Below, piece by piece: positions 2,727 to 36,254 of a DNA stretch of 36,254 nucleotides (the first letter of the stretch is position 1; each line of letters begins with the position of its first letter). Under the pieces are notes generated by a model. The model made no database searches and was not told where the DNA came from. It saw nothing but the letters and a program-made list of their open reading frames with translations. This DNA comes from a virus, in IMG/VR virus record IMGVR_UViG_3300027971_000119, positions 1-36,254 of that record, one strand, 5' to 3'. The position numbers and the translations under genes are program-made.

Positions 2727-5700
2727 CAGCCGATGCTCTTGGCCGGGTCGGTCCCGCCGATGGTCCCGTCAGGTCGAGCGAGGTACGCGTACCGTCGCAC
2801 CTGGTCGGTGACGAGCGACCACCCTGCGTGCTCGATGTCGTCGCCGATGGCGAGGCCGTGCGCGCCGTCGAGCGTGACGGTGACGCCCACGATGCTGACG
2901 ATGGTGCGGGTTGTGGAGCTCGACCACGCGCCCGCAGGCACGCATAGGACGACGTCCTGCGAGGCGAAGTACTGCACCGCGCTCGTGCCGAGGTCGGTCT
3001 GCGCCTCGCCGGTGCGAGGGTCCGTCGTGCCGGTGTACTGGTTGACCTCGACCGTGACCGTGACGGGGTCGACAACGGACGCCACGCGCAGGCTCGGCAC
3101 GTAGCCCGAGGGGCGCCCGCCTGTGCAGCTCAGCGTCAGGTTGAGCCTGTTCTTGAGCCAGTCGCGTTCGTAGCCCATGACGCGGCATGGCTGCGAGGTG
3201 ACGCCAATGGTGCCGTCGATGGCGATGGCAGCGGCCGCCGTGAGGACGACGCAGTCGCCGAGCGCGACCTCATGCGCCCCGGCAAGGTCGAGGCTCACCG
3301 CGAGCTGGTAGCGCACGCGAGGCACGCCCACGCGCTTGCGTAGGTGCTGCACGTAAGGGAGCAGGTTGACGGCCGCGTCTGCCGCGCCACCCTCGAGGAC
3401 GATGCCGCGCAGGTCAATGTCGAGCTGGGCGCCAGCGTCGCCACCGGCCGCAGAGATGGCGTCACTGTCGACGTAGGTGATGACGCGCTGCGCCTCGCCC
3501 GCGTCGTTGTAGTCGCTCGATAGCTTGTAGGCGCGGACCACCTTGCCATCGACGGCCGACGTGACCTGCCCATCGACGAGCAGCTCGGCGTCCGTGATGG
3601 TCAGCACGGCCTCGCGCTCGTCGGCCGAGGTGATGGGGGCAAGGGCTACGTACTGCCGCCCGAGGGCGTAGCGCTGCACGACCGACGCGCCGAGCAGGGT
3701 CAGGATGTCCCTGATGTTGTCCTCGACCGTCTCGTTGGGGTCGATGGGGGCGTTGTAGTCACGCAGCACCTCGGGAACAGGGAAGCTCTCGAAACTGCTG
3801 GGCAGCACGTCCGTCGCCGCCAAGCCCGCGCCTACCGGCAGGTAGTCGAGCACGGTCTCAGTCTGGGCGCCCACGGCCGAGACGAGCAGCACAACGGCCG
3901 CCCTGCTCGGGGTCTCCTGCCAGAAGCGCGCAACCGGGGTGACCTGCACCGGGGTCCCTCGGTCGACAATGAACGTGTCGCGCTCGGGTGACCACTGGTC
4001 GACCGTCAGCGAATAGCCAACCTGAGCGCCGGTATCCGGGTCGAGCGCAGGAGTCGAGGCAGAGACGAGGGCGTAGATGACGGACTGTGTGCCGTAGTCG
4101 TCGCCGCCCTCAAGTCGCACCCACTGAGGCGCACCGCCCGCGAAGACGTCGTCAGTCACGAGGAGGTACGTGTCGCCGACCTGCGCCCACGCGAGAGCAG
4201 GGCCGCGCACGTCGTAGGCGTCGGTGTCGTTGTTTCGGTCGAGCGCGCTCGTGTCGACCCGGCGCAGCTTGTTGCTCGGCCACGCGCCAGCATCGAGCGC
4301 GCGCCAATCCCAGCCGAGGCATAGGCTGTTCTCGTTGCCACGGTCTCGGCCGAACCGGACTTGCAGCGCGCCGCCCTGCCCCTGCTCCTGCAGTGCGAGG
4401 TGCACCTGATGTGACCCATCACCCGAGGACCAGAGGCGCACGTTCGCCCAGCGTCCCTCGACGCCCTGCGTGGTGACAGGTGACCACGTCTCGCACTGCC
4501 AGCGGGCCAAGTTCCACGCGCGTTGCGTGAGGTCTGCGCCCGAGACGACGGAGAGCAGGCGGTCAGGCCAGCGGACAATCTCCCCCGCTCCAGTTGGGTC
4601 GACCAGCGAGAGCGTCGAATACTCGGAGGTGGAGACGTTGCCAGCGTCGCCGACGTTAGTGCCGACCAGCGGGACGGCATTTGGGCTGACGTCGAAGCGA
4701 GACTTGCCGCCGCCGGTCAGGCTGCGCGCCGTGACCTCGTGGACAGTCGACGCGCCCACGCCGTTCTCAAGCTGCAGCCGCCCCTGCCGTGGGTGACCAT
4801 CGGGCAGCGTGATGTCGAACAGGTTGCTGTGGGCCGTGTATGCGTTGCCGTCCGTCTCGATGGTGTTGGCGTCGTGCAGGAAGTACGGAGTGCGAACTGC
4901 CGCGCCGGTGTCCCACTGCTGCTCGTGGGAGACCTGGCACCCATCGGCGCCATCTGCCCGAGGCTTGAAGTGATGCCAGCCGCGCACGAGCTGCGCAGAT
5001 GTCGCGCCGCCCGAGAGCTTCTGGCGCATGGCCGCCGTCATGCTCGCGATGCGGAGCGTGAGCGACAGGCCATCGGGCGCCAGCTCGGCCTCTCGGTCGA
5101 GGACGCCGCGCCAGATTTCACGGTAGGAGCCGACACGCTGCCCACCGACGACAGGCGCCGCTTGGACGATGGCCACGCGCCCGCGCCAGAAGATGGGCGC
5201 CTCGGTGACGTAGGGCTGCCAGCCGCGTATCGCGTCGTAGGTGTGCCGATAGCGCCGGGTCTGGCCGATGATGCGGAGGCAGTTCTGCAACGTGTTGCCC
5301 GAGACGCTACCGACCTGCAGCGCCTCAAGGCCCACGTGGATGATGTCGCCCGCGACGATGCCCGACGAGTCGACCACGTCGACATCCGTGGGGCCGAGCT
5401 CGTGAGGGATGGTCGCCGCGATGCGCGTCTTGGAGGCAGCGCCAGCGGGACCGATGCGCCGGAAGGTCGAGACAGGGTGAACCGTCCACGCCGAGCCCGT
5501 CACCGTGGCAGGCGAGACGCGCGCGCCTTGGGCAAGCAGCTTGACCGTGACGGCTTGCTGCTCGCTCATGCCGGTGACGTCGTCGATGCTGCCACCCTCG
5601 GGGCCAAGGTCGAGCACCGCCTCGATGTCGCGATAGTCGCGTGGGTAGAGCCCCGCCAGCGTGCCCTCGATGGTCTGCGTATCAGGCGCGGGGCCGGAGT

Positions 5701-24103: not shown

Positions 24104-24273
24104 GGTGCTGCGTCCGGCAGAGTGACGTCGAGCGTCGGATGGACCTCGACAGAGGTGATGTTGCTGTCGCGCCAGAAGTAGCGCGCGCGCGCGTCCACGT
24201 CCTCGATGGACCACCCAGCAAAGAGCCGGATGTACTGCGCGCCGTCGATGATGGCGATGACGAGGTAGAGCAT
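24100..24273 (-). CDS. Small protein downstream of the tail fibre, 57 aa
   Basis: A compact ORF with ATG 24273 overlapping the fibre stop and its own stop overlapping the next ATG, so it fits the gene chain exactly. Sequence begins [21 protein letters not shown] and ends TLDVTLPDAAP. An N-terminal hydrophobic strand-like region suggests a small structural or chaperone-like protein, perhaps for fibre folding (inference). Confidence 0.72.
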   Translation of the reverse strand: MLYLVIAIIDGAQYIRLFAGWSIEDVDARARYFWRDSNITSVEVHPTLDVTLPDAAP

Positions 24274-27050
24274 CAGGGCCTCCCGAAGTAGGTCGTGCGG
24301 AACGTGTAGTCAGGCGGGGCATCGTTCACCGAGCCGAACTTGACCCACCACCCGCGAATCTGCGTCGTGCGCGTCGCGCTGGTCGACGTGCCGAGACGGA
24401 CGCTGCCAGACAGCGACGTGTCAGCCGTCAGGCTCGCGTAGCTGTACGCGTACAGCATGCGCGGACCGCTCCAGAAGTAGACCCGCGTGCCGCTGCGTCG
24501 GATGGTCCAGATGCACCAGTCGTTGACCGCGTGCGGCATCAGCAGCTCCATCAGCCCCGCCTCAAGGACGAGGCCAGACGTCGACGGATAGAGGCTGATG
24601 CGCTTGGTGCCATCACGGATGACGAACGCGCTCTCGTTGGCCGTGCCGACCTGCGACGCGCGCATCTCGACGCGAGCCTCCCAGACTGTGTTCGCGGCGA
24701 ACCCGGCGTAGGTCGCGGTCAGTCGGGCCGGGTTCGTCGTGCTCGCGAGTTGGATGGCCGTGCCGCTGCCGACCACCGGGTAGGTGATGACGGGCGACGT
24801 CTCAGCCGTCCAGCCAGTGGGCACCGCCCCGCTCGGGTCGGAGAATGAGTCATCCCAAGAGTCGGCCGCGTAGCCTGAGCCCGAGCCGCTCACCGTCGTC
24901 CACGTGGGAGCGCCGCCGCCCGAGCTCGTCAGCACCTGCCCGTTGGTCCCGCTCGAGGCGGTCGACAGAATCTCGCGACCCGCCGTGGTGATGTCCGCGA
25001 CTGCCGCTGTGTCGACGCCCGTGAAGTACGCCAGCTTGTTCGCCGCAGTGGTCACGCCCGCGAGGGCCGTCAACGTGGCGTCAGCAGCTTGGAATGCCGT
25101 CGCGGCCGAGGTCGCCGCAGTGCCGAGGCCCAGCGTCGTGCGAGCCGTCGCCGCGTCGGCATCGTCGAGGAGCGTCCGCGCGAAGGCAGTCAGAGTCGCG
25201 ACCGCCGCGACATCGACGCCCGTGAAGTACGGGAGACGGTCCGCCGCAGTCGTGAGACCCGCGAGCGCACTGAGCGTCGCATCAGCCGGCTGAAACGACG
25301 TCGAAGCCGAGGTCGCCGCAGTGCCAAGCCCCAGCGTGGTCCGCGCCGTCGCCGCGTCCGCGTCGTCGAGCAAGGTGCGAGCGAACGAGGTGAGCGTCGT
25401 CATGGCTGCAGTCGCTGTATTAGACGCGGTCAGCCCGCTTGTGTAATAAGCGATTCGGTCGGCCGCTGGGGTCAGGCCGCTGATGGCCGTGACCGGTGCA
25501 CCGCTGATTGCGTTTCCATCTCTGTAGACCGTCGCGCCCGTCGTCGTCTGAAATCGGCCATTGAGCAGCGCCGCGTTCGTCGAGACGGCAAGGGTCGGGG
25601 CAGTGGCCAGGCCCGCGCTGTCGGAGATGAGGACCTTGAGGTAGTTCTGCGTGTTGTTCGTGTAGGTCGCGCCCGCGTTGAACAGGCATCGGTCGATGAG
25701 AATCGTGCCGGTGAAGCCCGCATCGATGCTGACGTTGCCGAGCGTCGAGCCGACGATGTAGATCGTCGCGGATATGGCTCCGATGGAGAGCCCGCCCTCA
25801 AGCTGGCAGCGCTCGATGCGATGCACGCCCGCGCCCGTCGTCGAGATGGTCGTCAGGCCCTCGACCTGGAGATTGACCAGGCGAACGCGCACGGCGTTGT
25901 TGCCGATGGTGAGCGCTCGACCCGACGAGAGCGACGCCACCGTGCCGCCGAAGTCGCCCGCTTGGGGTCCGATGATGGCGATGTTGTTGCGGCCGGTCGG
26001 GATGGTGACTGTGGCGCCCGCGTAAGAGCCGGGGCCGACGATGACCTGACAGGCCGGACCGACCGGGGTCGCGTCGATAGCCGTCTGGATGTCCCGCGTC
26101 GGGGAGGCCGGGACCGTGCTCGCATGCGCGAAGTCGCTGAAGGTCTGCGACGGCAGCTCCTCGTATCGGTCCGTGAGACCGACGACCGTGCCAGCGCCGC
26201 CGCTTGGAGTCTCCCAAGTCGGAGCGACGCCAGCGCCGCCCGAGGTGAGGACCTGACCGGCCGCGCCTGCGTCGCCGTTGACGCGCAGCTCCTCGAGCAC
26301 GAGAGCGAGTGCTTGAGGCACGTCACCACTGTCCGCGCTAGTCAGCGTGGCGAGCCCAGCAGGGACCGTGAGCGCCAGCCGATTGGTCGTACCGTTGTCG
26401 GTGACGCCGACTTGACCGGCATTGACGTTGCCGCTCTGCGAGCCATTCCCAGCGGAGATGCTCGATGGGTTGAGCACAACCACGTCGCTCGGGTTGAGCG
26501 GGTCCACGATGGACAGCTCGGTCGACACCGGATTGACCGCGAGAAACTGGCCGTCGAGGTTGGTCACGGTCAGGCAGTCGGAAGCATCGCCGATGATGGC
26601 GAGTGTGCCGGCCCCGACGTTATAGGTCAGGTTCGCCGACCCCCCGATGGAGTCGACGCCCGTGCCGAACGCAATCTCGTCGGCAGCGATGGTGCCCGCG
26701 ATGCCACCCGACGCCGCAGCAGGCGCCCACTCGGAGCCCGACCACGTCAGCACCTCACCCGAGGACGGAGCCGTCGAGGCCACGTCAGACAGGTCCGCGA
26801 GCGCCGCAGCGTGGACATGGTCGCCGCGCGCGTAGTCGTCGGACGAGCCCGCGTTGGCCGTGCCGATGTTGGCAGGCGTGCTCGCGTAGGGCGTCTGCGG
26901 GTCGCCCGGAGGCCCAGGCGGGCCGGGGTCACCCTGCGGCCCAGGAGGCCCCTCGGGACCAACCGGCCCCTGCGGACCCTCGGGACCAGCCGGACCAGCC
27001 GGACCAGCCGGACCCGGCTGACCGGGGAAAGTCGTTGTGGTACCAGCCAT
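24273..27050 (-). CDS. Tail fibre with collagen-like stem, repeats, beta-helix and lectin-like tip
   Basis: 925 aa. Residues about 9-50 are about 14 G-X-Y triplets ([13 protein letters not shown]), a collagen-like trimeric stem. The centre (around residues 310-480) has regularly spaced hydrophobic strands of the pectin-lyase-like beta-helix kind ([29 protein letters not shown]). Then two 67-aa repeats ([20 protein letters not shown]). The C-terminal 200 residues look like a concanavalin-A-like sandwich ([23 protein letters not shown]). ATG 27050 is chosen over upstream in-frame starts because it overlaps the preceding stop. Receptor binding is expected. Unusually, the gene is far from the tail module. 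Confidence 0.85.
24980..25455 (-). repeat. Tandem 67-aa repeats in the tail fibre gene
   Basis: Two nearly identical units 201 bp apart encode [20 protein letters not shown]... and [20 protein letters not shown]..., each followed by ALAG and a YFTGVD block; a third degenerate unit ([10 protein letters not shown]) precedes. Repeats of this kind are common in fibre stems and favour recombination that changes fibre length. Confidence 0.7.
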
Positions 27051-27514
27051 CACGGCACCTTGCGGAAGTGAGCGCAGACCTCGACGTCGCTCGCGCCAAC
27101 GGCCGAGCCCTTGAGCGAGAGCGTGGTGATGCTGCTCTGCGCCGTCCCGCTCAGGACGCCACGGACCTCGATGCTCTTGGCCGTGCCAGCGTCGAGCCGG
27201 GGCGCGTTCGTCGTCGCTGCGGGGCAGCTCGTCGCCGGTCCGAGGCAGATGAACGAGGCGTTGCCGCCCCACGCATCACGCGAGACCAGCGAGAGCGACG
27301 AGAGGAACAAGCCCGCCGTCAGCGCCGCGCCGGTCGAGGTGTCCTTCATGTCCGCGCTCGCAATCTGCGTCCACGCCGCCGAGGTCGGAGCGACCACCGC
27401 GCAGCCGTACACGTTGCCATAGATGCCGTTGGCGTCCTGCGCCGAGCCCGTCACCGGAACCGCGCCGACCATCGCCACAGCCGCGACCACTGCTGCCACC
27501 TTACGCATTGTCAT
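27050..27514 (-). CDS. Secreted beta-rich protein with signal peptide, 154 aa
   Basis: Begins [20 protein letters not shown] and a cleavable signal peptide ending near GSA. The mature part is rich in Ala, Ser, Thr and Gly with four Cys (near YGCAVV, FICLG, TSCPA and EVCAHF), enough for two disulphides, and no clear family. A Sec signal on a late phage gene directly before the fibre is unusual. It may be an envelope protein, a surface-modifying factor or an adhesin accessory (inference). Start 27514 (a second ATG at 27508 is possible) overlaps the endolysin gene by 14 bp. Confidence 0.65.
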
Positions 27515-28250: not shown

Positions 28251-29306
28251 TCACCGAACGGAGCGCCGCGCCACATCCTGCCGATGCTCTCGCATGTCGG
28301 CGTGCCGGCCTGCCCGGTCTGCTGCGATGCGGTTGGCATCGGGTCCGTGCACCGTGCGCCCAAGATGGTCGTCGATGGTTGAGGCGGGAGGTCGACCCGC
28401 GCCGCCTCGGCGCTGCCACTTGTCGCGCGCTGCTCGCTCCTTGCAGAGCCGCAGGAAGCGCTCGACATAGACCATCTCGGACGCTGCTCGCTCCGACTCG
28501 CGCTGCCTGCGCCGCGCATTGACCACGGCCTGCCCATAGGTAAACTCGGCCTGCAGCAGCGTCGGGCTAATCCTCTCGCTGGCCATGATGAGATGCACGA
28601 TGACCTTCCCGGCCGCGTACCTGCCGGTCACGTCGATGCCGAGTTTGGGCGCCGCCTCGAGGCAGCGAGCATGCAGCAAGGCGGGCGCCTGGTAGTTATA
28701 CGCGCGCGCGCGGTCGTCGGAATCAGTAGGAGGTCGACCACTGCGCAGAGGCGAGTCAGGCGGGCGCTCGCCTGTCCTCGTGTCGCATCTGATGCCGAGG
28801 CGCTCCAGTCCGTCGATGAGCTGCACAGCCAAGATGGAAGCAAGCGATACCGCTGCGCCGCTGTGCGCGCTTATCTCTTGGCGCCACTGTAGGAGCCTCT
28901 GCAGCGCCGCGCCCGAGATGTGGACGTGTCGACTCTGGCCGCCCTCCTCTGCTCGCCTGGCACGCTCCAAGCCTAGCAACTCAAGGATGGCACCGCTGCG
29001 CAGGTCGATGTTCTCGCGCTGCTGGTACTCGCCCACGTAGCGCATCAGATACGTCGACATGGCCAACCGGGGCTGAGTCCCGCGCGCGTTTATCTCGACG
29101 AGCTCGCGAGTCCATAGCGTCGTGGCGCGCGCCGTGTATTTGCACGACAGCCCGATGCCGTGCTGATGCAGCGCGCTGACGATGCGAGTGGTGAGCAGGA
29201 ACTTGAGCGCCGCGTATCGCTGCCTCTCCTCATCCCACGTCGCACACTGCCACTCGCGGATTGTCGGCAGATGCTGCTCAGGTAGGACGGTCAGGAAATC
29301 AGCCAC
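28251..29306 (-). CDS. Hypothetical 351-aa protein at the end of the early operon
   Basis: No family recognised. Alpha-helical and basic, with a helical core near SGAALQRLLQWRQEISAHSG and VSLASILAVQLIDGLERLG, and a highly basic C-terminus (RRRQRESERAASEM, KERAARDKWQRRGGAGRP). GTG 29306 overlaps the nuclease stop by 16 bp with GAGG upstream. The gene is the last before the late region and beside its presumed promoter, the place where lambda has its late antiterminator Q. A late regulator is a reasonable guess but not shown. The last 45 residues overlap an antisense ORF on the plus strand. Confidence 0.68.
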   Translation of the reverse strand: MADFLTVLPEQHLPTIREWQCATWDEERQRYAALKFLLTTRIVSALHQHGIGLSCKYTARATTLWTRELVEINARGTQPRLAMSTYLMRYVGEYQQRENIDLRSGAILELLGLERARRAEEGGQSRHVHISGAALQRLLQWRQEISAHSGAAVSLASILAVQLIDGLERLGIRCDTRTGERPPDSPLRSGRPPTDSDDRARAYNYQAPALLHARCLEAAPKLGIDVTGRYAAGKVIVHLIMASERISPTLLQAEFTYGQAVVNARRRQRESERAASEMVYVERFLRLCKERAARDKWQRRGGAGRPPASTIDDHLGRTVHGPDANRIAADRAGRHADMREHRQDVARRSVR

Positions 29307-29818: not shown

Positions 29819-30132
29819 GGTCGACCCCTCTCTGGCCACGTGGCCAGAATCCGCGCATGGTGCTCGGCCAGAGTCTGCAGCACCGACGCAGGCAGCACGC
29901 TGCCCGTCTGGTAGCTGTGGTCGACCGCCGCTAGGGCCTCGCGCAAGCCCGCCAGCTCCCGTTCGGCATCTAGAGCACGGGCGACTAGCTCAGAGCGGAG
30001 TGCATCCAGTCGGAATCTTTCACGTCGCTCAAAGTCGCACTCTGTTCTCAGGTTTTCAATCGCTTGCCGAAGCACTTGCGCGTCCGGCGTCTGAAGCCTA
30101 TTGAGGATCTCATAGACGTCAGGTTTCGTCAT
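29815..30132 (-). CDS. Coiled-coil hypothetical protein, 105 aa
   Basis: Strongly helical and charged, with a coiled coil over residues about 20-70 (RRERFRLDALRSELVARALDAERELAGLREAL). Unknown family. ATG 30132 overlaps the upstream TTG-started gene (ATGA). Its base composition is lower in GC than the flanks, as are the following genes up to about 31260, which may mark a later acquisition. Confidence 0.68.
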   Translation of the reverse strand: MTKPDVYEILNRLQTPDAQVLRQAIENLRTECDFERRERFRLDALRSELVARALDAERELAGLREALAAVDHSYQTGSVLPASVLQTLAEHHARILATWPERGRP

Positions 30133-30425
30133 GGCTCCTGCCCCAGCGCCCGCTTGGCCGCGTCTCTCGTCTCGCGCAGCGCCTCGACAGTGCGCCCGAG
30201 AGCGACGTGCAGCTCGTCGGCCTCAAACCACGCCTGCCCCTCCGCAAAGCTCCACGTGCGCCACATCACCGGACCGTCGCCGCCTCGAGGCAGATACTCG
30301 ACCAGAGCGAGCCGGCCGAACCTCACCCGCACCGTGCCGATGTCCTGCACTCGGCCGCGCAGACCATGTCGCTCCAACGCCGCGCGCAGGTTGACCCGCG
30401 CCGCTGCCAAGTCAGCCTTGCTCAA
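30129..30425 (-). CDS. Hypothetical 98-aa protein with TTG start
   Basis: Unknown family. Basic N-terminal helix, then a beta part (QDIGTVRVRFGRLALVEYLPRGGDGPVMWRTWSF), then a helix (HVALGRTVEALRETRDAAKRAL). TTG 30425 is taken as start because GGGGTGAG precedes it and it lies in the end of the upstream gene. The beta part could be a small DNA- or protein-binding module. Confidence 0.62.
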   Translation of the reverse strand: MSKADLAAARVNLRAALERHGLRGRVQDIGTVRVRFGRLALVEYLPRGGDGPVMWRTWSFAEGQAWFEADELHVALGRTVEALRETRDAAKRALGQEP

Positions 30426-30624
30426 TGCTCACCCCCTGCGCTAGCTCGTCCTGCGCCCACCCGCACCCCTCGCAGGAGTGCCGCGTCAGCCACCACTGGT
30501 GGCGCTCGTCGAGGTCGGATGCCGTGACCCGCTGCGAGCGCTCGGCCGTCCTCGACCCGCACTCGGGGCAGGGATTACCGCCGCCCAACTTCACCTGTGG
30601 GTGCATCGTCAGGATTCGCTCCAT
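30412..30624 (-). CDS. Zinc-ribbon protein, 70 aa
   Basis: Two CxxC knuckles, CPEC (residues about 19-22) and CEGC (about 51-54), about 28 residues apart, form a typical zinc ribbon. Such small proteins often bind nucleic acid or a polymerase partner. Overlaps the DpdA-like gene by 16 bp. Its neighbour on the 5' side is the DpdA-like gene, so a link with DNA modification is possible but not shown. Confidence 0.7.
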   Translation of the reverse strand: MERILTMHPQVKLGGGNPCPECGSRTAERSQRVTASDLDERHQWWLTRHSCEGCGWAQDELAQGVSIEQG

Positions 30625-31268
30625 GAACTCATCTCCATTTCAATCCGATGTTGCATTAGTGGAATCATGCTTAGCTGCCTCCTGGCAGCATCGAGCAGTG
30701 GGAGCGTCACGGCGAATCTTGAGACTGAGGAGCCGTCGAAAGAATCAACGCCCGCACGTGCGCATATCTCAATGCGTCTGGCCGTATTGACCCTGCCCAC
30801 ATGGCAGATGGCGCCCCGACCATGCGCAACGCTCGACCATGTAGCAGCCGTGTGCTCTTTCCACTGGCTGTCGCCGCCGACGAAGATGCCGACGCGCGAA
30901 GACAGAAGGTGCTCAATGTCGCGTGGATTGTGCCCATTCTGCACAGCCACGAGCACGCGTGGCACGTCTCGCAAGAGTCGTTCAATCCATGACGCGCTAA
31001 GTTCAAGGCTACGCTGACCGCCCATCACAATGTCGGGAGCAACTACCCAATCGGCATTTGCCCCGTGGCTCTGCACAGCTGATTCAAAGCGCTTTAGGTC
31101 AAGCATCGGCTCGCCAGCCATGAACGCCGTCCACGCGCCATTGTCGAGAGCGTAAGGGAACCCATGCGCGTTGAGCACGCCACGTGGCGAGAGCATCAAC
31201 CGCCAACCTGCTGCGCGTAACACTGCGAGGTTCCGTCGCGTGCCAGTGCGGGCCGCATAGGCAATCAC
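30609..31268 (-). CDS. dpdA: DpdA-like 7-deazaguanine transglycosylase
   Basis: 219 aa, TGT-like TIM barrel. In phages, DpdA-type proteins exchange guanine in DNA for preQ0, preQ1 or a related base and protect from restriction. Motifs: YALDNGAW (Asp42), DWVVAPDI (Asp79), AVQNG (Gln110), GIFVGGDSQW (130-137), HVGRVNTARRI (156-166) and GVDSFDG (Asp175, Asp178), the order seen in phage DpdA and tRNA transglycosylase relatives. It is on the short side for DpdA. GTG 31268 overlaps the helicase-loader stop (GTGA); an upstream ATG exists. No preQ0 synthesis genes are seen, so the base would come from the host. Local GC is about 58-65%, below the flanks. Confidence 0.78.
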   Translation of the reverse strand: MIAYAARTGTRRNLAVLRAAGWRLMLSPRGVLNAHGFPYALDNGAWTAFMAGEPMLDLKRFESAVQSHGANADWVVAPDIVMGGQRSLELSASWIERLLRDVPRVLVAVQNGHNPRDIEHLLSSRVGIFVGGDSQWKEHTAATWSSVAHGRGAICHVGRVNTARRIEICARAGVDSFDGSSVSRFAVTLPLLDAARRQLSMIPLMQHRIEMEMSSWSES

Positions 31269-32014
31269 ACCGTAGACCGCCAATCCTTGCCCGTCATCAC
31301 CACCGGCCGCGTGCTCGTCTTGATGCGGCTCCACAGTCGGTCACCCAGGTGCATCTCAAGCCCTTCATCGGTGAGGTTGCTCGCGATGAGCACCGTACCA
31401 CCCGACAGCGTGCGCCGCTCGAGCAGCTGGTCGAGCTGCGACTGCGCCCAGTCCGTGTCACGCTCTCGCCCGATGTCGTCGAGCGCCACGACTGCAGGCC
31501 GCTCGATGCGCGCCTTGAGCGCTGCCATGTCGCTGTCCCGCCCCATCGCCTGCCGCATGTCGTCGAGCCACAGCGCCCACGAGACGTAACGCGCCGAGAT
31601 GCCGCGCTCGCAGAGGCCACGCACTGCGCAGAGCATGCGATGTGTCTTGCCCCGTCCAGTCGAGCCGAGGAAGCGCAGGCCCTTGCCCTCGGGCTGGTAG
31701 CTCTCCACCCACGCGCGCCCCTCGGGGCTCAAGTCGTCCATCGTCGTGTGGTTGTAGGTCCAAGGGATGCGCGCCAGCGTCAGGCGCCGCATGCGAGCCC
31801 CGATGCCCGCGCACTGGCAGCGCTCGCCCGTCCTCGTGTCGCTCTCGGTCCCGCAGCACACGGGGCAGGTGTACGACCGCCACGCGCAGAGGCCGTCGTC
31901 GGTCTTGTGGAGCTCGACGTCATGCCACGAGAGCGGGACCAGATGCGGACAAGGCACCGTGGGCGCGTCAGGGTCGAGGAACTTGCTCAGGTCGTTGGGG
32001 TCGATGGGCTTCAT
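31265..32014 (-). CDS. dnaC: DnaC-like helicase loader ATPase
   Basis: 249 aa. Loads the host replicative helicase at the phage origin. AAA+ features: Walker A GSTGRGKT (117-124), Walker B VVALDD (175-180), sensor-1 Asn213 in IASNLT, and arginine finger around RLWSRI (226-231). The N-terminal 70 residues carry a Cys cluster (PCPHL, CPVCC, CQC), possibly a zinc site, as in DnaC/DnaI-type loaders. ATG 32014 overlaps the preceding stop (ATGA). The phage codes for no helicase or polymerase of its own, so it depends on host replisome parts. Confidence 0.85.
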   Translation of the reverse strand: MKPIDPNDLSKFLDPDAPTVPCPHLVPLSWHDVELHKTDDGLCAWRSYTCPVCCGTESDTRTGERCQCAGIGARMRRLTLARIPWTYNHTTMDDLSPEGRAWVESYQPEGKGLRFLGSTGRGKTHRMLCAVRGLCERGISARYVSWALWLDDMRQAMGRDSDMAALKARIERPAVVALDDIGRERDTDWAQSQLDQLLERRTLSGGTVLIASNLTDEGLEMHLGDRLWSRIKTSTRPVVMTGKDWRSTV

Positions 32015-32574
32015 GCGTCCTCCGTGGGCCGCTTGAGCGCGCCCTCAATGTCGGCCGTGAGCAGGTGCTCGACCATCTTCTGCGCCGCCTCAAGCGCGTG
32101 CCCGTACAACTCGCCGACGAGGTCGTTGTACGCGTCGCCCGCATCGCCGCCACGACGCAGGCCCAGCTCGATGAGCGCGAACCGCGTCATCACCGACGCG
32201 AGGTCGAACGCGCTGAGCTCGACCTGGTCACGCCCCGGCAGGACTGCGCCGAGGATGCGCCACTTGTCCCGCGAGGCCACATTACACGTGCTGCGCGGAA
32301 CGTCGCGGAGGTCGAGCCCGCGCAGGTCTTCGCGCCAGAGGTCGACCGACACGCGCCGCGTCGGCTCACCGTAGCGGTACTCCTGCAGGCCCTGCGTCAA
32401 GTCGGGCGCCGGGGGCTGCGGACCGTCCATGCCGCAGCGCCGCCACGCTGCGACCTCCTGCAGCCACGTCTCGTACTCGGGCGTCTTGCGGTAGCTGTAG
32501 GCCGCACGCGCAGCCTCGGCTGCGTCGCTGATGGCGTAGTTGTCGGCCGTGCCGATGCGCTTGTCGTCGCTCAT
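32011..32574 (-). CDS. Hypothetical 187-aa protein, first gene of the second early unit
   Basis: No family recognised. Acidic and helical. The N-terminal helix region (DAAEAARAAYSYRKTPEY) leads into WLQEVAAWRRCGMDG and a Pro-rich loop (PQPPAPDL); the C-terminal third is helical (YNDLVGELYGHALEAAQKMV). AGGAGA precedes ATG 32574 and the leader hairpin lies 20 nt further up. It sits directly before the helicase loader and may assist replication (inference). Confidence 0.75.
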   Translation of the reverse strand: MSDDKRIGTADNYAISDAAEAARAAYSYRKTPEYETWLQEVAAWRRCGMDGPQPPAPDLTQGLQEYRYGEPTRRVSVDLWREDLRGLDLRDVPRSTCNVASRDKWRILGAVLPGRDQVELSAFDLASVMTRFALIELGLRRGGDAGDAYNDLVGELYGHALEAAQKMVEHLLTADIEGALKRPTEDA

Positions 32575-32593
32575 GCTGTCTCCTGTGGTTGGT

Positions 32594-32609
32594 GCCGCTC
32601 CCCAGCGGC
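32594..32609 (-). promoter_or_regulatory. 5' leader hairpin of the 187-aa gene
   Basis: The same GCCGCT-GGGG-AGCGGC hairpin as at 2222-2237, here 20 nt before ATG 32574. Identical sequence and similar placement before the first gene of two early transcripts. Confidence 0.6.
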
Positions 32610-32615
32610 AAGGTC

Positions 32616-32643
32616 ACTGTAGCGCGTCCGATTGCGGACGCAA
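32616..32643 (-). promoter_or_regulatory. Putative sigma70-type promoter of the helicase-loader operon
   Basis: Transcribed strand TTGCGT (32643-32638), 16-nt spacer, TACAGT (32621-32616). The -35 box is inside a TTGCG-GA-CGCAA palindrome (32632-32643) and a second inverted repeat GCGTCCG/CGGACGC (32624-32641). Same -35 hexamer as at 2322 and 34040. Confidence 0.6.
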
Positions 32644-32649
32644 GTAAAA

Positions 32650-32883
32650 TCAGCGGGTAATCGGCCACCCCTGCCGCTTGCCCACTGCATGGATTGCGAC
32701 AACTCGCTGTCCCGCGTCGAGGCGTCGCCCGGCCAGTGCGTCGAGGAGCAGGTCACGCGCCTTGACCCGCGCGTTGCGCTCGTCCTCGAGGCGCGGAGGC
32801 CGGGCCGTCAGTATGCTCCGCACGTCTGGGGCGCAGATGACGTTGAGCAGGGCTTGGATTGTCTCGTCGTTGATGGTGCTCAA
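32650..32883 (-). CDS. Hypothetical 77-aa protein with TTG start
   Basis: Unknown. Helical and basic at the C-terminus (LLLDALAGRRLDAGQRVVAIHAVGKRQG). TTG 32883 overlaps the initiator stop (TTGA), with AGGGG about 9 nt before it; no ATG or GTG fits better. It closes the first early replication unit; the second promoter follows. Confidence 0.62.
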   Translation of the reverse strand: MSTINDETIQALLNVICAPDVRSILTARPPRLEDERNARVKARDLLLDALAGRRLDAGQRVVAIHAVGKRQGWPITR

Positions 32884-33743
32884 AAGGTGTACCCCTGGTC
32901 AGGCACGTCCTTCCACGCGTCGTTCACACGCTTGGGGTCGTGGTCGTTGGGTTTTTCCGACTTTGACCGGCTCTGACCGGACTTTGTCGGTTTTGGCTCG
33001 TGCACGCCGTCGCGCAGAATCATGCGCAGCAGCGACAGGCTTGGACCTCCACCACCTGCCACTTCTGCCGAACGGTCGATGCACTTCATGACGTAGTCGG
33101 CTCCGCGCTCGGCAACCGCTGCGCTCAGGGCGTCGATGTCCAGAGCACCGACCACGAGGGGCGCCGCTCCTGTCTTGCTTCGGAGCGCGAGGCGCCAGCG
33201 CTCAGCGACTGCCCCGAGCTGGTCACCCGTCGTGGCCGCCGTGGCTGCCTCGCGCGCGGGCGCATGCGCGCGCGTGGTAGCTGCGTCAGCAGCTACTGTC
33301 CTGTCGTGTACTGTCGTGTCTTGTACTGTACTGTTGTAACGGTCCGCGTCGTCAGGCGTAACGGTCGACTCCGTTACGCGTAACGGTGGCGTAACGGTCG
33401 ACTCCGTTACGGTGGCGTTACGGGCTGCGTTACGGTGGCGCTTCTGGCGGTCCGCGTTGGTCGGGTCGAGCTGCGTGCGCTTCCACTCCTCGACGTCGTA
33501 GCCGTCGCCGTCCGCGCGCTCGATGAGCAGGCCGACCCGGACGAAGTGCTCAATGGCGCGTGTCCACTCCTCGACCGTCGAGCCCCAGAGGTGGGCGAGT
33601 TGCGCTGGGCTAGCTGCCAAGGCTGGCAGATGCCCCGCGTTCTTCTTGGCTCGGATGAGGACTGCGGGCCAGTACAGGGCGAACCCTGTGCAGAGCAGAC
33701 GCTCGTCGGTCGGCACGTCGCAGTCGACGCGTACCCAGCTCAC
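32880..33743 (-). CDS. Replication initiator / replisome organiser
   Basis: 287 aa. N-terminal region (residues 1-95) looks like a winged-helix DNA-binding module, with DERLLCTGFALYWPAVLIRAKK and LAHLWGSTVEEWTRAIEHFVRVGLL, followed by the frequent phage pattern DPTNADRQKRHRNA. The centre is low-complexity Thr/Val because it carries the iteron DNA (33290-33440). The C-terminal third is helical and Lys-rich. It resembles lambda O in arrangement: iterons inside the initiator gene, helicase loader close downstream. GTG 33743 forms GTGA with the HTH stop. Confidence 0.72.
   Translation of the reverse strand: MSWVRVDCDVPTDERLLCTGFALYWPAVLIRAKKNAGHLPALAASPAQLAHLWGSTVEEWTRAIEHFVRVGLLIERADGDGYDVEEWKRTQLDPTNADRQKRHRNAARNATVTESTVTPPLRVTESTVTPDDADRYNSTVQDTTVHDRTVAADAATTRAHAPAREAATAATTGDQLGAVAERWRLALRSKTGAAPLVVGALDIDALSAAVAERGADYVMKCIDRSAEVAGGGGPSLSLLRMILRDGVHEPKPTKSGQSRSKSEKPNDHDPKRVNDAWKDVPDQGYTF
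33250..33440. other. Candidate replication origin with iterons inside the initiator gene
   Basis: Eight GTAAC or GTTAC cores lie between 33336 and 33433 (at 33336, 33358, 33373, 33380, 33391, 33406, 33417, 33429), many as GTAACGG or CCGTTAC. Two exact 24-bp direct repeats (33355-33378 and 33388-33411), 33 bp apart, each contain an 8-bp inverted repeat CGTAACGG/CCGTTACG. Upstream are four TACTGT copies (33294-33334) and a GC-alternating run with GCGCATGCGC. Such iteron clusters are binding sites for the encoded initiator. Confidence 0.7.
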
Positions 33744-34108: not shown

Positions 34109-34573
34109 TCAGAACGGGATGGGGTCCGAGTCGTCAGGCGTCGTGGGCTTGGAGAATGGCGGGTTGCTCCGCACTCGCTCCTTGGGCGGTCCTTGCCCCA
34201 CCCACACCGCGTCGCCGGTCGAGGGGCGTTCCTCGTCGCGCTTGGTGCCGTCGAGGAACGTCACCTTGTCGGCGCGGATCTCCCAGACCTTGCGCTTGAC
34301 GCCCTCCTTGTCAGTGTACTCGCGGCTCTCAAGCCTGCCCTCGACGTAGACCTTTCGACCCTTCGCCAAGTACTGCCCGCAGAGCTCGGCCGTCTTGCCC
34401 CACACGCTGACAGCGTGCCACTCGGTCCGCTCCTGCCGCTGCCCGTCCTTGTCGGTCCACTGCTCGCTCGTGGCCATGCGCAGCTCGGTGACGGCCTGCC
34501 CGCCCTGCGTGTAGCGTACCTCGGGGTCCGCGCCGAGGTTGCCGATGAGGATGACTTTGTTGACGCTTGCCAT
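34109..34573 (-). CDS. ssb: Single-stranded DNA-binding protein, right copy (complete)
   Basis: 154 aa, complete. OB-fold domain over residues 1-110 and a low-complexity linker lead to the acidic tip DDSDPIPF, the conserved SSB C-terminal tail that recruits partner proteins. AGGAG precedes ATG 34573. It follows the 116-aa gene and is closed by the terminator at 34048-34080. The copy at the left edge of the window is the same gene in a diverged version. Confidence 0.95.
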
Positions 34574-34585
34574 ATCTGCTCCTGT

Positions 34586-34936
34586 TCAGTGGTAGTAGCC
34601 GCAGGCGCCCATCGCCCGCAGTTCTCGCCGTACCGCCTCTAGGCGGTCCCGTCCCATGCGATTCATGATGTTTGTCCAGGCGCCGTGCCGCTGGAGCCAC
34701 ACCCCGAAGACGTGCCAGCCACCACGCACGCCGGGGTATCCGTCCCACTCGGTCGCCGACTCCTCGTGCTGCTCCTCGGCCTCGACCACTAGCTCGGTTT
34801 CGTACTCGCCGCCCATGTCGATGCTGACGTCGTAGCCATCAGGCGCCCAGCGTCGATAGCTCGGTCGACCTTGAGCACACCAGGCATCGAGCAGGCGCCG
34901 CTTGTGGCGCAGCCACTTCTCCGGGTTGTGCGTCAT
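34586..34936 (-). CDS. Hypothetical 116-aa protein of the recombination operon, right copy
   Basis: Diverged copy of the protein at 392-742; 113 of 116 residues agree (differences at residues 7, 26 and 82). Same ATGA overlap with the preceding gene and the same 12-bp gap to SSB. The pattern of mainly silent changes indicates that both versions code for functional protein. Confidence 0.8.
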   Translation of the reverse strand: MTHNPEKWLRHKRRLLDAWCAQGRPSYRRWAPDGYDVSIDMGGEYETELVVEAEEQHEESATEWDGYPGVRGGWHVFGVWLQRHGAWTNIMNRMGRDRLEAVRRELRAMGACGYYH

Positions 34937-35367
34937 GGCTTGCCGTCCGGGTCACCCTCGGGTCCGAAGTCCTCCGCATCCCAATCGGCCGAGCCTGCGT
35001 TGGAGCTGGGCGCTGGAATGACAACCTTGAACGGCTTGACGTCCTTGACCCGCGTCACGCGCAGCCGGTCGGCCTCGGGCACCGAGAGCACGCAGCGCTC
35101 GGCCAAGCGGTCGATGGCCTGCCGCTGCAACTCCATCTTGTTGAGCGCGTCGGCCTGCATGTCCCAGCACGCCGAGGTCGAGTCGCTGTTACGCACGCCC
35201 AGCTCGTCGATGCACTGCACTGTCGCGCGCTCGATGCTCTTGCCCACGGCCTCGCCGTTCTGCGCGCCCACGAGGAAGGTGATGGTCGCGCCGAGGCAGG
35301 CGCCGAGCGTGACGCTCATCCAGTCGAAGCCGCGCCCATCCTTATCGCCCACGATGAGGTCAGACAT
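34933..35367 (-). CDS. Membrane-anchored hypothetical protein, 144 aa, right copy
   Basis: Diverged copy of the protein at 739-1173, same start (MSDLIVGDKDG), same single membrane segment at residues 16-36 and acidic tail. GGGGAGGGGG lies 5 nt before ATG 35367 and supports the start. Eight residues differ from the left copy, four of them in or near the membrane segment. Confidence 0.78.
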   Translation of the reverse strand: MSDLIVGDKDGRGFDWMSVTLGACLGATITFLVGAQNGEAVGKSIERATVQCIDELGVRNSDSTSACWDMQADALNKMELQRQAIDRLAERCVLSVPEADRLRVTRVKDVKPFKVVIPAPSSNAGSADWDAEDFGPEGDPDGKP

Positions 35368-35590
35368 TGGACCCCCTCCCCAGCGACTCAAGCTCGGACT
35401 TGTATTGGCGCATCTGACTGATGAGGTTCGAGCGACTCGGCTCGGCATCGCACCAGATGAGCGCGCCGACACAGACCCCGATGCCAAACACGACGGCCAA
35501 GTCGACCGCGCCACGCTCCTGAGCATCACGCGCCGCCTGCATACACTGAGCGCGCAGGACGTCGAGCTCCACTTGCTGTTCGATTGTCAT
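35360..35590 (-). CDS. Small single-span membrane protein, 76 aa, right copy
   Basis: Diverged copy of the protein at 1166-1396, with 11 of 76 residues changed, including changes on both sides of the membrane segment (AVVFGIGVCVGALIW). Overlaps the next gene by 8 bp. Its faster change than neighbours may reflect a role at the host interface. Confidence 0.78.
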   Translation of the reverse strand: MTIEQQVELDVLRAQCMQAARDAQERGAVDLAVVFGIGVCVGALIWCDAEPSRSNLISQMRQYKSELESLGRGSNV

Positions 35591-35593
35591 GTC

Positions 35594-36254
35594 TCAGCCC
35601 TCCCCTTGCGTCTCGTAGGTGACCTCAGCATCCATCGCCTGGTCTCGCTCAGCCCGCCACGCAGCCAGCGCAGTCCGGCCACGGCTCGTCGTCAGGTAGG
35701 ACACAGCGCCGCGCAGTCGACTGAGCGGGGCCGTGCCGATGTCGAGGCCATCCCGCGCCAACAGCGTCTCGACGTAGTCGGGCACATCGTCGCCGAGGCC
35801 GAGCAGCTCGCCCGTCAGGCCGGACCGCGTGTCGACCGCGACCGGCAGATGCTCGACCTTGAGCGCCTCCTCGAGCACCTGCACGACCGGCTTGGGCTGC
35901 TCGAGCGGAGTCGCGAGCTCGTCGGGGTCATAGATGCCCGCGACGAGGTCCGGGTAGACGATGCGGGCGAGAGCCGACGCGCATCGAGCGCGGAGCATCG
36001 CCTCCGGGTAGGAGCGCCAACCCTGCCCGCCAGTGAGCCCCGCACGCTGCGCCTGCTCGATGGTCCACGTCAGCGTCGTCGGCTCGGTGTCGCCCTTGCG
36101 CTGCGTCAGGTAGGTGGCCTTGGTCGCGGTCGACTCGACGAGGCGCCACTGGAGGCACTCCCCCGAGCGACGGACCAGCGCAACCGTGGCGTCGGCTGCG
36201 AGCGTGACCTTGCCCTTGATGACGCCGAGCATGCGCATCGACTGCATCGGGGCG
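35594..36254 (-). CDS. recT: RecT-family annealing protein, right copy, N-terminus cut by window edge
   Basis: Codes for the C-terminal 219 residues; the start lies beyond the window. In the shared part, 8 of 217 residues differ from the copy at 1400-2209. The GWRSYPEAMLRARC and YPDLVAGIYDPDEL blocks are unchanged, so the core of the annealing fold is conserved. Confidence 0.75.
   Translation of the reverse strand, partial: APMQSMRMLGVIKGKVTLAADATVALVRRSGECLQWRLVESTATKATYLTQRKGDTEPTTLTWTIEQAQRAGLTGGQGWRSYPEAMLRARCASALARIVYPDLVAGIYDPDELATPLEQPKPVVQVLEEALKVEHLPVAVDTRSGLTGELLGLGDDVPDYVETLLARDGLDIGTAPLSRLRGAVSYLTTSRGRTALAAWRAERDQAMDAEVTYETQGEG

Follow-up and report, generated by a model that had tools for sequence, protein, structure and literature searches.

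A compact DpdA-like protein encoded in a phage replication operon: a probable DNA guanine transglycosylase using host-made 7-deazaguanine

The window considered here, a 36,254-nucleotide stretch of viral DNA (IMGVR_UViG_3300027971_000119, positions 1 to 36,254), carries among its replication genes a short reading frame whose product recalls phage DpdA, raising the question of what so small a protein does and from where it would obtain its base. The reading that best fits the evidence is that it is probably a compact DpdA-like DNA guanine transglycosylase which uses host-made 7-deazaguanine. An earlier note, made from the letters of the window, had placed the gene at 30609-31268 and listed five motifs; the coordinates proved exact and the ORF real, and all five motifs, ALDNGA(W), APD, FVGG, HVGRVN and DSFDG, occur in the protein. 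The gene and its surroundings are as follows.

30609..31268, minus strand: compact TGT/DpdA-like protein, 219 aa, GTG start (phrog_15826; AlphaFold2 model; TGT matches in the PDB)
31265..32014, minus strand: DnaC-like helicase loader, directly upstream (phrog_50, E=2.8e-33; GTGA overlap)
30412..30624, minus strand: small zinc-ribbon ORF, directly downstream (context only; retained by sister phages lacking the TGT gene)
30616..31279, no strand assigned: cassette boundaries (replaced in sister contigs L211 and L212 by about 247 bp that hold an unrelated small ORF)

The GTG at 31268 shares a GTGA with the TGA that terminates the DnaC-like gene, to which the compact gene is likely to be translationally coupled, and the ORF ends at 30609. 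The loader itself is genomic context and not a partner. 'Early operon', the earlier description of this region, is a fair label, since RecT-like, SSB, replication-initiation, DnaC-like and RecU/Holliday-junction-resolvase genes surround the compact gene. Its 3' end overlaps the zinc-ribbon ORF, which the same description had also singled out; this neighbour is indeed present, but its supposed link to the TGT gene fell away, as the zinc-ribbon gene falls beyond the exchanged stretch and the sister phages retain it while lacking the TGT gene, and it is therefore ruled out as a partner. Elsewhere in the window, a direct near-repeat of about 2.06 kb (1-2060 versus 34195-36254, 92.5% identical), containing a RecT-like gene and a neighbouring gene, represents either a duplication whose copies have diverged or an oddity of contig assembly. 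A long ORF at 24273-27272 probably encodes a tail fibre, as it contains collagen-like GPxGPx sequence together with an internal repeat (24996-25169 / 25197-25370, 79%), and 28251-29306 encodes a 351-aa protein with no Pfam or PHROG match that is conserved in sister phages.

The protein matches phrog_15826, a family listed under 'unknown function', over essentially its full length (E = 1.3e-41, profile positions 1-205 of 212) and shares 45-70% identity with viral and prophage relatives, so the ORF is not a chance one. The scan yielded 9 close viral loci, at least 513 confirmed wider viral relatives, of which 80 were retained, and, on the bacterial side, 59 loci from genera such as Sphingopyxis/Sphingomonas, Caballeronia/Paraburkholderia and Pseudomonas. 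Named phages with a family member amount to only about two dozen records, including actinophages (StevieRay-type Mycobacterium phages, Arthrobacter Aoka and Sonali, Rhodococcus ReqiPine5), Erythrobacter R6L and ZS04, two cyanophages, two coliphages and one vibriophage; a search of annotated phages with the window DNA gave no match. In Erythrobacter phage ZS04 (L012, 5001-5642) the compact relative is annotated 'DarB-like antirestriction protein', which is probably a misannotation. Weak matches to Pfam DUF3151 and NCBIfam choice_anch_J fell under cut-off and were set aside, and PADLOC gave no match to the compact protein. No biochemical test or DNA modification data for phrog_15826 were found in the literature.

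The DpdA-like identity originally proposed for the protein stands as far as relatedness is concerned, but not as membership of the classical family. The classical DpdA profile, phrog_887, matches the window protein with an E of 0.019 over 48 residues, too weak for membership when true classical DpdA proteins score 1e-43 or better, and the protein belongs instead to the separate phrog_15826. In ten viral records the phrog_887 matches turned out to be the compact protein again and no second DpdA. DpdA3 and DpdA4 are presumably also groups other than the compact family. The bacterial TGT profile PF01702 gave no match to the window protein at E up to 1, the CxCxxC...H C-terminal zinc-binding segment of tRNA TGTs is absent, the protein ending about 40 residues past Asp178, and searching the PDB by sequence, using either the protein or the family alignment, returned no matches.

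Structure prediction, which the earlier note had put forward as a check, gave a TGT-type barrel, and the predicted catalytic Asp residues are conserved in the family. The AlphaFold2 model, computed here from 36 aligned sequences, contains a confident barrel (pLDDT 88.5, pTM 0.83). Against solved structures, Foldseek placed TGT first (E 7.7e-6, TM 0.57-0.61 by query length); further TIM barrels followed closely in the ranking. VIA-align 2 returned preQ1-bound TGT as the best match (Z 15.5, 2.9 A over 202 residues), many TIM barrels lying within a few Z units of TGT, and 49 of the 50 entries in its listing were TGT, the exception being pyruvate kinase (Z 14.9 but 4.6 A). The modelled protein thus adopts the TGT-type barrel fold.

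Profile alignments, on which the residue equivalence to TGT rests, point to the same enzyme group. Aligned by hhalign, the family matched phage DpdA with an E of 1.6e-5 over 161 columns, LDNGA, VQ.G, FVGG and HVGRVN falling on or near their DpdA counterparts, and matched bacterial TGT with an E of 4.4e-3 over 183 columns, which is weak taken alone, in the register LDNGA/TDSGG, APD/FDEC, VQ.G/VQGG, FVGG/AIGG, HVGRVN/LMGVG and DSFDG/DMFDC. Conservation was counted over 138 distinct relatives, and Asp79, Gln110, Gly131, Lys137, His156, Arg159, Asn161, Arg165, Asp178 and Gly179 are each present in all of them. The TGT numbering below (Asp102, Asp156, Gln203, Gly230, Asp280) is that of the Zymomonas enzyme.

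31143..31145, minus strand: Asp42 of LDNGA, predicted counterpart of TGT Asp102 and of the DpdA LDSGA Asp (137/138; aligned with TDSGGF and LDSGAF)
31032..31034, minus strand: Asp79 of APD, predicted base-recognition Asp (TGT Asp156; 138/138; aligned with TGT FDEC)
30939..30941, minus strand: Gln110 of VQNG, predicted base-binding Gln (TGT Gln203; 138/138; profile alignment)
30873..30878, minus strand: Gly131-Gly132 of FVGG, predicted base-pocket loop (TGT Gly230 region; 138/138 and 137/138)
30786..30803, minus strand: HVGRVN, with His156, Arg159 and Asn161 (H, R and N each 138/138; aligned with TGT LMGVG and DpdA HAFGIT)
30735..30737, minus strand: Asp178 of DSFDG, predicted nucleophile (TGT Asp280; 138/138; aligned with DMFDC and near DpdA CDSSSW)

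The putative catalytic and base-binding Asp, Gln and Gly set is, judging from these alignments, present in TGT order.

The gene is also a recent arrival. Sister contigs L211 and L212 match the window at 89% identity over 31280-33377 and at 95% over 30128-30615, and no copy of the compact gene was found elsewhere in them; at 3733-3979, in place of the TGT gene, they carry a small, possibly helix-turn-helix ORF. The GC content of the gene, 59.1% against 67.8% for the window, is the lowest of the window, falling under every sampled 660-nt stretch (mean 67.8%, SD 1.75), and its GC3 is 0.63 versus 0.76-0.91 in ten other genes. The absence of the gene from the sisters, together with the lowest GC, therefore identifies it as a recent single-gene cassette. 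Late acquisition, as first suspected from base composition, is supported by GC, GC3 and the sister phages alike; the low GC of the gene was read correctly, and the figure of about 72% then given for a late-gene line lies above the 65 to 71% of 1-kb windows outside the region.

The strongest functional evidence comes from neighbour genes outside the window. QueC scored over cut-off in 11 and QueD in 7 of 50 viral records carrying the compact gene; queD was the very next gene in 7/7 of these records, and queC likewise in nearly all. A local search reaching up to 8 kb either side of the gene at 148 loci found queC at 27, a frequency counted within gene-carrying records, so that the argument is one of adjacency inside them, 26 of these being adjacent to the compact gene and every one on the same strand. 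At 10 loci queD was present (9 adjacent), and a YhhQ-like gene (PF02592) was present at 6, each about within one gene, with Pfam confirmation for two; a PAPS-reductase/DndC-like PP-loop gene lay close by at 28. At least one such partner occurs at 66/148 loci, and adjacent partners of all four kinds share the strand of the compact gene. The queC partners all contain SGGxDS and most the zinc motif, and the queD partners keep CxxxHGH. On a quick tree with modest branch support, the minimum number of changes is 10 for queC, 6 for queD, 5 for the YhhQ-like gene and 8 for the PAPS/DndC-like gene, so that partner pairing has been gained or lost many times. As queC, queD and a YhhQ-type transporter stand repeatedly beside the relatives, the adjacency computed here ties the phrog_15826 family to 7-deazaguanine. 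DNA methyltransferase genes are also common neighbours. Beside the compact gene of StevieRay lies gp53 (L015, 4382-4912), annotated hypothetical, which resembles a YhhQ-type queuosine-precursor transporter; the Mycobacterium host of this phage is reported to be without preQ0 genes (PMC6884629).

The window itself carries no such partner. As had been claimed before, precursor genes of its own are lacking: queC, queD, PAPS-reductase, YhhQ-like and classical dpdA genes were not found in the record, nor were folE and queE, the record being possibly incomplete, and its nearest relatives are likewise without a partner gene. The precursor base is therefore likely to be supplied by the host; among 24 genomes of hosts of prophage relatives, QueC and TGT were each present in 23. 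There are precedents for both outcomes of such dependence: Pantoea phage MED16 (PMC8306585) and Salmonella phage 7-11 (PMC6884629) have dpdA without the pathway and low dADG in their DNA, and the dpdA-only mycobacteriophage Orion, whose host is without preQ0 genes, has no 7-deazaguanine in its DNA (PMC6884629), so a lone dpdA-type gene need not modify. The search with the compact family did not retrieve Orion.

Taken together, the proposed mechanism would be that of a minimal TGT-fold enzyme swapping guanine in phage DNA for 7-deazaguanine, the inserted base most likely being preQ0 or something closely derived from it. If the residues work as their counterparts do in TGT, the sugar would be joined covalently to Asp178 in an intermediate once guanine has left, Asp42 would serve as general acid/base, and the new base would be held by Asp79, Gln110 and Gly131-132. 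This base would be drawn from the host queuosine pathway, the phage making none, and other phages of the family bring one step with them, in the form of QueC, QueD or a preQ0-type transporter. The benefit to the phage would likely be protection from restriction.

Some phages carry more than the compact gene. Sonali, vibriophage R29Z and coliphage phiG7 combine it with a classical dpdA and preQ0 pathway genes; since they carry both enzymes, the role of the compact enzyme may be distinct from, or partly redundant with, that of classical DpdA. In Escherichia phage phiG7 (L155, 13244-13836) the compact gene is interrupted, its two parts lying in different reading frames, and SHIN8, also a phage with classical dpdA and preQ0-pathway genes, shows a two-piece match of the same kind. 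A broader proposal, which we advance tentatively and with considerable doubt, is that phrog_15826 is a separate class of minimal DNA guanine transglycosylase, specific for a base or target of its own and acting as a plug-in module. Some phages would use it with nothing but base made by the host, others would add a single precursor enzyme or an importer, or else a PP-loop enzyme of the DndC-like kind that makes an undescribed base, and in some it would work alongside classical DpdA.

The PP-loop neighbours bear on a narrower alternative, which we consider unlikely, namely that an active enzyme inserts some base outside the known ones, the PP-loop partner converting the precursor in the PAPS/DndC-like branch and the compact enzyme being specialised for such a base, also when beside classical DpdA. 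The frequency of PAPS-reductase/DndC-like genes would suit it, as would the three phages with both enzymes and the observation that an adjacent queC occurs together with a PAPS-like gene at 0/148 loci, an exclusion that is not independent since the DndC-like cases come mostly from one Burkholderia-group lineage; no PP-loop partner occurs in the window or in its nearest relatives. In the Burkholderia-group prophages the PAPS-like partner is a roughly 600-aa DndC-like form, which scored 149 bits against TIGR03183, under the cut-off of that model. At L059 (8719-10539) and similar Caballeronia and Paraburkholderia loci this PP-loop protein of about 600 aa is encoded directly downstream of the compact TGT, and its frame is apparently broken in several genomes.

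TGT acts on tRNA, and the preferred reading of a DNA-modifying enzyme has to be weighed against a compact tRNA-guanine transglycosylase which would alter host tRNA (e.g. decoding) and not DNA. The linkage to queC and queD alone does not tell the two substrates apart, the transporter linkage suits tRNA equally, and the top solved structures are tRNA TGTs. DNA is favoured because the gene sits in a replication/recombination operon, often near DNA methyltransferase genes, and because family members co-occur with classical dpdA and the preQ0 pathway. The missing PF01702 match and zinc-binding segment, the better alignment to phage DpdA than to TGT and the TGT already possessed by hosts of prophage relatives further speak against a tRNA substrate, which we regard as distinctly improbable. 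That the protein interferes with host 7-deazaguanine systems (Qat, type IV CBASS deazaguanylation) or consumes free base would fit a one-gene accessory cassette and the QueC-family enzymes that conjugate deazaguanine to proteins in defence (PMC13329287), but is very improbable, as the queC and queD of relatives suit base use better than base removal and the TGT active-site set is fully conserved.

A DNA guanine transglycosylase using host-made base would give a likely function to a large phage family of the unknown-function class and indicate how small a TGT-type enzyme may be. It also suggests a single-gene cassette, parasitising a host tRNA-modification pathway, as one means by which DNA modification can spread, and the pairing in mycobacteriophages of the compact gene with a YhhQ-type transporter, in a host reported without preQ0 genes, makes dependence on imported base testable.

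Among the closest known systems are StevieRay gp54, Aoka gp40 and Sonali gp81, which are also phrog_15826 proteins, share about 22-35% identity with the window protein and are called 'DpdA-like tRNA-guanine transglycosylase' (by annotation only); StevieRay, Aoka and ReqiPine5 have a nearby YhhQ-like gene, whereas the window has none. The singleton dpdA genes of 7-11, MED16 and Orion resemble the window gene as phage transglycosylases relying on host or environmental precursor, but the MED16 DpdA, unlike the window protein, is reported to fall into a DpdA/TGT cluster that includes homologues of TGT from proteobacteria (PMC8306585). Bacterial TGT (PF01702), the top solved structural match, has its Asp/Asp/Gln/Gly-Gly/Asp in register with the compact protein; it is about 370 residues long against 219, and the compact protein differs further in lacking the zinc segment and the PF01702 match and in its phage replication context. 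Classical DpdA (phrog_887; CAjan, 9g and Rosebush type) is about 300 aa, so that the compact protein is some 80-100 residues shorter, has Gln in VQDG where classical DpdA has His in FH.G, and is usually encoded without a full preQ0 pathway, sometimes beside classical DpdA itself; the two have in common the TGT-like barrel, 7-deazaguanine genes nearby and, in the same order, the LDSGA/LDNGA, ...GG, H-x-x-G and D-S-S/D-G motifs.
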